Source: Sediminitomix flava | GTDB lineage: Bacteria > Bacteroidota > Bacteroidia > Cytophagales > Flammeovirgaceae | Direction of reading: 5' to 3' | Assembly (NCBI RefSeq): GCF_003149185.1 | Contig: NZ_QGDO01000003.1 | Coordinates: forward strand, 62,001-126,000 | DNA: 64,000 bases | Translations under genes and position numbers: made by a program | Notes under the pieces: model-generated | Database searches by the model: none | The model's input: only the letters and a program-made list of their open reading frames with translations | Told to the model about the DNA's origin: nothing | Part shown: positions 8,820 to 10,289 of the stretch, one piece after another | How positions within the stretch are numbered: position 1 is the stretch's first letter | How the letters are laid out: each line of letters begins with the position of its first letter

Positions 8820-10289
8820 ATGAACTACATTAAAAACTCACTTTTGAGTATTTTTTTTCTTGTAAACATCACTACACTATCGGCTCAACATTTTGAAGTA
8901 GTTTCAAACTATAAAGGTTGGAAATGGGATAGTATTTATGTTTACAAAAACCCTTATATCAGCTTGGCCGTCGTTCCAGATGCAGCAGGAAGAGTGTTGG
9001 AATACAACCTTGGAGAAACCGCTTCTTTGTGGATCAACCCAAAAGAATTAGGAAAGTCTTATGATAATGGGGATGAAGTTAAGCTTCATGAGTGGCGAAA
9101 TTTTGGTGGTTATCGACTTGTTCCTATTCCTATGAATAATTGGGCAATAAATACCGCAGGGAGTAAAGTAGAGCGTTGGCCACCTCCTGTGGCGATTGGC
9201 GATGCGCCCTATCAAGTCGCAATTTCAGAAGATAAGCAAGGGAAAGAAGTACTTGAAGTACATTCTAAAGTACAACAAATGCCAGTGCCTTTATGGAATG
9301 GAAGAGAAAAAGCATTCAGCCAACCTAATTCAGTTGATGAAGAAATCCAGTATAGCAGAACACTGTCTACAGAGGAAAATTCGAGCAGAGTTTTTTATAC
9401 ACATACGCTTAAAAATGTAGGTGAAAAAGAAATTGATAGAGGAATAATGACGACGAGTCAACATATGTCTTGGACAGATTCTTTATTACAAGATGGAGAA
9501 AACTTTGTGGCTTATATTCCTTTTAGTACAAAATATAAAATGCCTGATGGAGAACAATTTCATATCAATGTTACCCCCGAAATGCATTGGCGATATGTGC
9601 ATAGAAACCGAATGCCATTAGATAAAAATAACCCTGAACATGTAGAAAAATATTTCAATGTAGGTACGAATTGGACAGGAGAAGTAGCCCCAGGCATTTT
9701 TGAAATCCACTTTGATTATAACATAATGGGCGGTTTCCACATGGTTTCATCTGAATCTTGGTTATGTTATGTCAATAAAACCAACTTGACTGCTTTTGTA
9801 AAGATGTTTGCGCCTTATGACCCCACTTTAACCTACGAAGAAGGAGTAAATATCGCGATATACAATAGTGGAATGGAAACTGGCTATCTGGAAACAGAGG
9901 TGAAAACACCGATCTACAAACTCAAATCGGGTGAGCATTTCGACTTTGAGGAAATTCATGCAGCCGCTAAAATCTTATCTACGCCTGTCTTGGCGGTTAA
10001 GAATGCAGGTATAGTAACCGAATACCTCACATTTGACGAAAAGCAATCTGCTTTAAAAGGAAAGTATGGAGTGTTTTTTAAAGGGAAAGCAATTTTAAAA
10101 CTGTGGGGTGATTCATCAGAAGTTTTGAAAACCATTGAACTTTCAGAAGTTGATCCTTTACATGGTTTTGAGTTGAATCATGAAATTCAACAAGAGTTGA
10201 TTGGTCAAGTCTCGAAAGTTGAAATACGAATTCAATCAGTCAACCAAGAAGATTTTTTACTAGATACACTTGATCTGACAAACCTATAA
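8820..10289 (+). CDS. Secreted DUF4380-like (galactose-mutarotase-like) protein
   Basis: This 489-residue protein has a signal peptide ending TLSAQ. The N-terminal two thirds carry the pattern I associate with DUF4380: YKGW, then a [11 protein letters not shown] segment, then WRNFGGYRL with following prolines and WPPP. That family has a galactose-mutarotase-like beta-supersandwich fold. No lipobox or T9SS domain is seen, so it is predicted to be periplasmic. Its function is unknown. The fold binds sugars, so it could be a mutarotase, a lyase/hydrolase or a binding protein for a carrageenan fragment. The GH2 gene starts four bases after its stop codon, which implies a coupled role in oligosaccharide processing. 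The family call is from pattern memory. Confidence 0.75.

Follow-up and report, generated by a model that had tools for sequence, protein, structure and literature searches.

The protein encoded at positions 8820-10289 of a 64,000-nucleotide stretch of Sediminitomix flava DNA (the window, G000:C3:62001-126000) may be a mutarotase-like enzyme that works in the periplasm on sugars derived from carrageenan, a reading to which we give a probability of about 0.4. The protein is probably a helper enzyme. Its predicted fold, its clade, its association with carrageenan loci and its invariant polar residues were computed, and we infer its location, substrate and chemistry. As a gene shared widely among carrageenan loci of many marine Bacteroidota, it gives direct access either to a step not yet covered or to the handover of the released anhydro-sugar.

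The gene in its kappa-carrageenan locus

The open reading frame is intact on the plus strand, with an ATG start, 489 codons (489 aa) and a TAA stop ending at 10289. Four bases separate this TAA from the ATG at 10294 of a GH2 β-galactosidase (10294-13545, plus strand). The earlier note had described the gene as translationally coupled to this neighbor. The galactosidase was confirmed as LacZ-type (NF052611, E 2.6e-294; Pfam GH2 domains) and the four-base gap is exact, but the gap is only consistent with coupling. Upstream, the 83-bp gap between a κ-carrageenase gene and the gene under study contains a terminator-like structure at 8745-8769 (plus strand), a perfect 11-bp hairpin followed by T's (MFE −14.8 kcal/mol, z −4.3). 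The scan listed this hairpin on the minus strand, and the plus-strand T-run was read from the sequence. Given the hairpin and T-run, this gene could be transcribed with GH2 as a segment of its own, separate or attenuated.

The surrounding genes, all on the plus strand, belong to a carrageenan-type locus, as previously claimed, and specifically to the κ type, based on two GH16 κ-carrageenases and an S1 sulfatase. The sulfatase (5854-7254) is closest to the solved exo-4S-κ-carrageenan sulfatase 6prm (E 1.4e-205). The first carrageenase (7261-8736; NF041449) carries a T9SS sorting tail (Por_Secre_tail), and the second (20640-22508; Pfam/NCBIfam) combines Big_2, a ricin-type lectin and a T9SS tail. 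The κ-carrageenase model matched them with E 3e-104 and 1e-90, respectively, both slightly under the curated cut-off. By Pfam, the locus also encodes a hybrid two-component regulator (HTCS, 469-4569) and an AraC-type regulator (4876-5715). A SusC-like transporter (13833-17009, TIGR04056) and a SusD-like lipoprotein (17029-18717, PF07980) follow GH2. The next protein (18738-20369, 543 aa) had no Pfam or NCBIfam match and is, by position, probably a surface glycan-binding protein; a 57% identical copy occupies the same place in the Flammeovirgaceae genome G014. Farther downstream, two adjacent overlapping DUF1254/DUF1214 genes were found at 28721-31670; genomes G012 and G002 likewise have a related gene close to the homologue (L013 and L015).

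Relatives and their neighborhoods

Searches with the protein itself matched no family in Pfam (0 at E ≤ 1) or NCBIfam, and the Pfam gathering score of DUF4380 (PF14315) was not reached. Searched against PDB sequences, the protein and the profiles returned nothing or noise only, and PHROGs and a viral fold library gave no meaningful match. Its relatives were more informative. PF14315 was matched directly by 17 of the 34 family members (E ≤ 1; best 3.4e-10), and hhalign aligned the family profile with DUF4380 proteins at 99.7% probability over 260 columns, with E 1e-26 in one comparison. Five DUF4380 reference proteins were used here, four above the Pfam cut-off and the fifth just below. The proposed DUF4380 pattern thus holds at the superfamily level, while the window protein itself is unmatched by Pfam. 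By these profile comparisons, the protein is a divergent DUF4380 relative in a carrageenan-associated clade.

Within Flammeovirgaceae, one other genus, Flammeovirga, was found to carry the gene, with seven homologues at 56-59% identity. Profile searches recovered further relatives in other families of the same class, and more remote ones in the rest of the phylum. A scan of public-genome contigs located no locus with a single sequence as query and 37 loci with an alignment, in Flammeovirga, Reichenbachiella, Echinicola, Labilibaculum, Ancylomarina, Carboxylicivirga, Tenacibaculum, Polaribacter, Wenyingzhuangia, Aquimarina and others. In the tree, 28 close sequences form one clade (support 100/97). 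Genes of DUF4380 type also occur outside this clade. The S. flava genome holds a paralogue of 326 aa, just under the Pfam cut-off, near G000:C10:113022-113252 (L056:9173-10153, minus strand), between a SusC gene and a gene of 1078 aa without assignment. An overlap between a true DUF4380 gene and the end of an S1 sulfatase gene in G008 (L017:96-2202) shows that the link between DUF4380 and sulfatases is not confined to the carrageenan-associated clade.

Neighboring genes within 10 kb were labeled through BLAST comparison with annotated references and checked with Pfam or the PDB. An S1 sulfatase was present in 34 of the 37 loci, and at least one carrageenan-type gene (GH16, GH127, GH167 or dau) in 33, across several Bacteroidota families. 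The homologues are not consistently placed outside polysaccharide loci, and with the residue conservation described below, the proposal in the earlier note survives both of its refutation tests. DauA and DauB were neighbors in 15 and 10 loci, respectively. Packing can be tight: in several Tenacibaculum loci only 3-6 bases separate the gene from a preceding S1 sulfatase, in Flavivirga rizhaonensis it follows GH167 by 4 bases, and gene overlaps occur in other loci. One distant relative adjoins an SDR dehydrogenase and an MR_MLE enzyme. Four loci had no carrageenan-type gene, namely L073 and L083, which are short contigs, and L087 and L092, where the gene lies beside purL. These two purL-adjacent clade members, from Flavivirga aquatica (L087:9884-11593) and Flavicella marina (L092:9983-11443), fall outside a carrageenan-type neighborhood; they are sisters in the tree and keep nearly all the conserved residues.

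Several other proteins recur near the gene. An FG-GAP/UnbV-ASPIC repeat protein was found in 11 of the 37 loci (L048:5635-7536 and 10 others), and a multihaem cytochrome plus TPR protein is kept beside the gene in Tenacibaculum loci (L046:12394-14637). A protein of about 640 aa, mostly with a Tat-like MKRRDFF or MQRRDFF start, recurs in carrageenan loci (L059:415-2343, L060:6619-8535, L068:17455-19380, L079:17374-19299, L081:3172-5094, L094:2067-3989 and L010:11444-13375). These proteins are all 56-59% identical to the FAD-dependent oxidoreductase (PF12831) of L010.

The gene was present in 8 of the 9 Flammeovirgaceae genomes with a strong κ-carrageenase (E < 1e-60) and in 0 of the 7 without (Fisher p 0.0014, relatedness ignored). 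The ninth carrageenase-positive genome, G014, has a colinear locus from which the gene is cleanly absent, marking it as an accessory part. By this distribution, the gene is a strongly associated but dispensable accessory of carrageenan loci, not a required core gene.

An enzyme for the anhydro-galactose linkage had been thought to be lacking from the locus, which would have left a gap for this protein to fill. That absence is true of the window only: none of the window proteins scanned was a GH127, and the genome's GH127 matches lie outside it. One of them, at G000:C3:54730-56913, lies some 5-7 kb before the window begins. It is followed, up to the window edge, by a RhaT-like importer, an MR_MLE enzyme (dauB-like), an aldehyde dehydrogenase (dauA-like), a DGOK (dauC-like) and a KDPG-type aldolase (dauD-like). 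The genes from GH127 to dauC were read in L021, and the aldolase (L100:643-1287, equal to G000:C3:61643-62287) crosses the edge, its 3′ end covering positions 1-287 on the plus strand. The anhydro-galactose step and its pathway are thus encoded, and the apparent gap is a window-edge effect. Among the 37 relatives' loci, 17 likewise have a GH127 no more than 10 kb from the gene, and GH127 occurs in all nine carrageenase-positive Flammeovirgaceae genomes searched. The protein itself does not belong to GH127, having no Pfam match and a separate GH127 in its locus. We therefore rejected it as a gap filler, and a role as the missing enzyme for this linkage is highly improbable.

Fold, conserved residues and likely function

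The protein begins with a hydrophobic signal-like stretch (residues 1-23, ending in LSAQ), in line with the earlier claim of a secreted protein. A galactose-mutarotase-like supersandwich (about 25-390) and a C-terminal β domain (about 395-489) follow. Unlike both carrageenases of the locus, it gave no match to the T9SS tail model in the Pfam scan. Judging from this tail result and the signal-like start, the protein is most likely exported and periplasmic.

An AlphaFold2 model built from 34 sequences reached a mean pLDDT of 92.7 and a pTM of 0.90. The best PDB matches by Foldseek were galactose-mutarotase-like proteins, including GalM, YeaD, Slr1438 and hexose-6-phosphate mutarotases (E about 1e-11), and matches were obtained for two models built from different alignments. 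The sugar-binding fold postulated before is borne out at this level, the predicted structure matching solved galactose mutarotases best. The TM-scores are modest, at 0.40-0.45 by query length. The periplasmic domain of YidC and an NDH subunit, both non-enzymes, are also among the fold matches, so the fold alone does not prove chemistry. MdoD was a weak match (TM-score 0.23).

Conservation is concentrated in the sugar-fold domain. Among the 28 clade members, the supersandwich has 70 invariant positions, 35 of them D/E/H/R/K/Q/N/W/Y/C, and the C-terminal domain has 8, only 1 of them in this set. R58, R180, Q214, E358 and E360 are invariant in all 34 sequences, distant relatives included, and H215 is present in 27 of the 28 clade members. 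Essentially confined to the clade are R93, R119, H195, E295, D299 and an insert containing W257; within it, R93 and R119 are invariant and R264 nearly so. The conserved set would be consistent with a sugar site suited to an anionic galactan.

We envisage a mutarotase-like enzyme that would act in the periplasm beside exo-sulfatases, GH127, GH167 and GH2. Its substrates would be carrageenan-derived oligosaccharides or reducing sugars released from them. The reaction would follow the acid-base scheme of aldose 1-epimerases at the anomeric carbon, Glu358 (or Glu360) serving as the base and the pair Gln214-His215 acting as acid or stabilizer. The ring to be opened or interconverted would be that of galactose or 3,6-anhydro-D-galactose, perhaps with the 4-sulfate still on the reducing end, and the importers and the DauA dehydrogenase would thereby be supplied with the form they use. 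The fold matches from both models, the invariant R58, Q214, E358 and E360, the near-invariant H215 and the 35-to-1 ratio of invariant reactive residues argue for this reading. So do the common DauA and DauB neighbors and the distant relative beside SDR and MR_MLE genes. An agarose locus with a putative GalM gene beside RhaT and KdgK provides a precedent (PMC5849685). Arguing against it are the occurrence of the fold in non-enzymes, the modest TM-scores, the lack of profile similarity to GalM (from a two-sequence GalM profile) and the separate GalM already contained in Tenacibaculum loci. The clade-specific invariant arginines R93 and R119, with the nearly invariant R264, also count against it, pointing to a sulfated, anionic oligosaccharide and not to a free neutral sugar.

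The same arginines would suit a new glycoside hydrolase or lyase on the mutarotase fold, one that, next to the sulfatases in the periplasm, would cut carrageenan oligosaccharides of sulfated or hybrid type. The acidic and basic residues are very strongly conserved and the gene is tightly packed with exo-enzymes, by 3-6 bases to S1 sulfatases, 4 bases to GH167 and overlaps, both consistent with cleavage. Glucan cleavage in the periplasm by a family with an unusual catalytic arrangement is known from OpgD (GH186; PMC10514313), and MdoD is a weak fold match. However, the κ-carrageenan linkages are already served in these loci by GH16, GH127, GH167 and GH2, and the otherwise colinear G014 locus manages without the gene. 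Cleavage is thus possible but rather unlikely. The protein could alternatively be a non-catalytic carbohydrate-binding protein, located in the periplasm or at the outer membrane's inner face, where it would hold sulfated oligosaccharides after import until the exo-enzymes act on them. A sugar-binding fold, an arginine-rich conserved set, export, lipobox-like starts in some relatives and dispensability in one genome would all agree with binding. Binding proteins of such loci usually vary fast, whereas over 70 positions are invariant here across 28 clade sequences with identity down to 47%. This pattern looks more like an active site, making pure binding unlikely. The mutarotase-like enzyme remains our preferred reading, with a new glycosidase and a binding protein as serious competitors.

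Comparison with known systems

True GalM and YeaD (PF01263) share a fold with the protein. It differs from them in being apparently exported, is about 10% identical to them and gave no PF01263 match, nor did its relatives. Comparing the family profile with the true GalM of these loci showed no similarity, the GalM profile consisting of two sequences only; on this result, GalM orthology was rejected. Read by eye, E358 in the motif GYLETE appears to lie on a late strand, like the GalM base in CFETQ, and H215 on the strand where GalM has TNH. OpgD and OpgG (GH186) are likewise periplasmic glycan-active proteins. The TM-score is low (0.23), no sequence relation was found, and their substrate is β-1,2-glucan (PMC10514313).

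Enzymes have been assigned to the steps of κ-carrageenan breakdown in Zobellia and Pseudoalteromonas (PMC5698469, PMC6923384). The S. flava locus resembles the Zobellia type described there by Ficko-Blean et al. (2017, PMC5698469), with GH127, S1 sulfatases, dauA-D, a DMT/RhaT-like importer, an AraC regulator and a SusCD-like pair. Table 1 of that paper includes no such protein among its carrageenan-induced genes, and the legend of its Figure 9 has "UNK" and aldose 1-epimerase categories. In the literature text available, carrageenan together with mutarotase or epimerase yielded ordinary GalM mentions only. The protein could conceivably be the first of a new family of catalysts built on a lone supersandwich of the mutarotase type, cleaving or rearranging sulfated carrageenan oligosaccharides in a step absent from the published pathway, a prospect we consider doubtful.

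Our literature search found no paper naming DUF4380 and none joining carrageenan with it. With DUF4380 proteins (PF14315), the window protein shares a core of a GGR-type N-terminal motif, a WPPP segment, a Trp and an ExE motif near the end. It differs in its length (about 490 aa versus about 310), an insert at about 240-283, extra arginines and the C-terminal β domain. The DUF4380 superfamily is uncharacterized, and a carrageenan substrate with well-defined neighbors would make this clade an unusually testable entry point.
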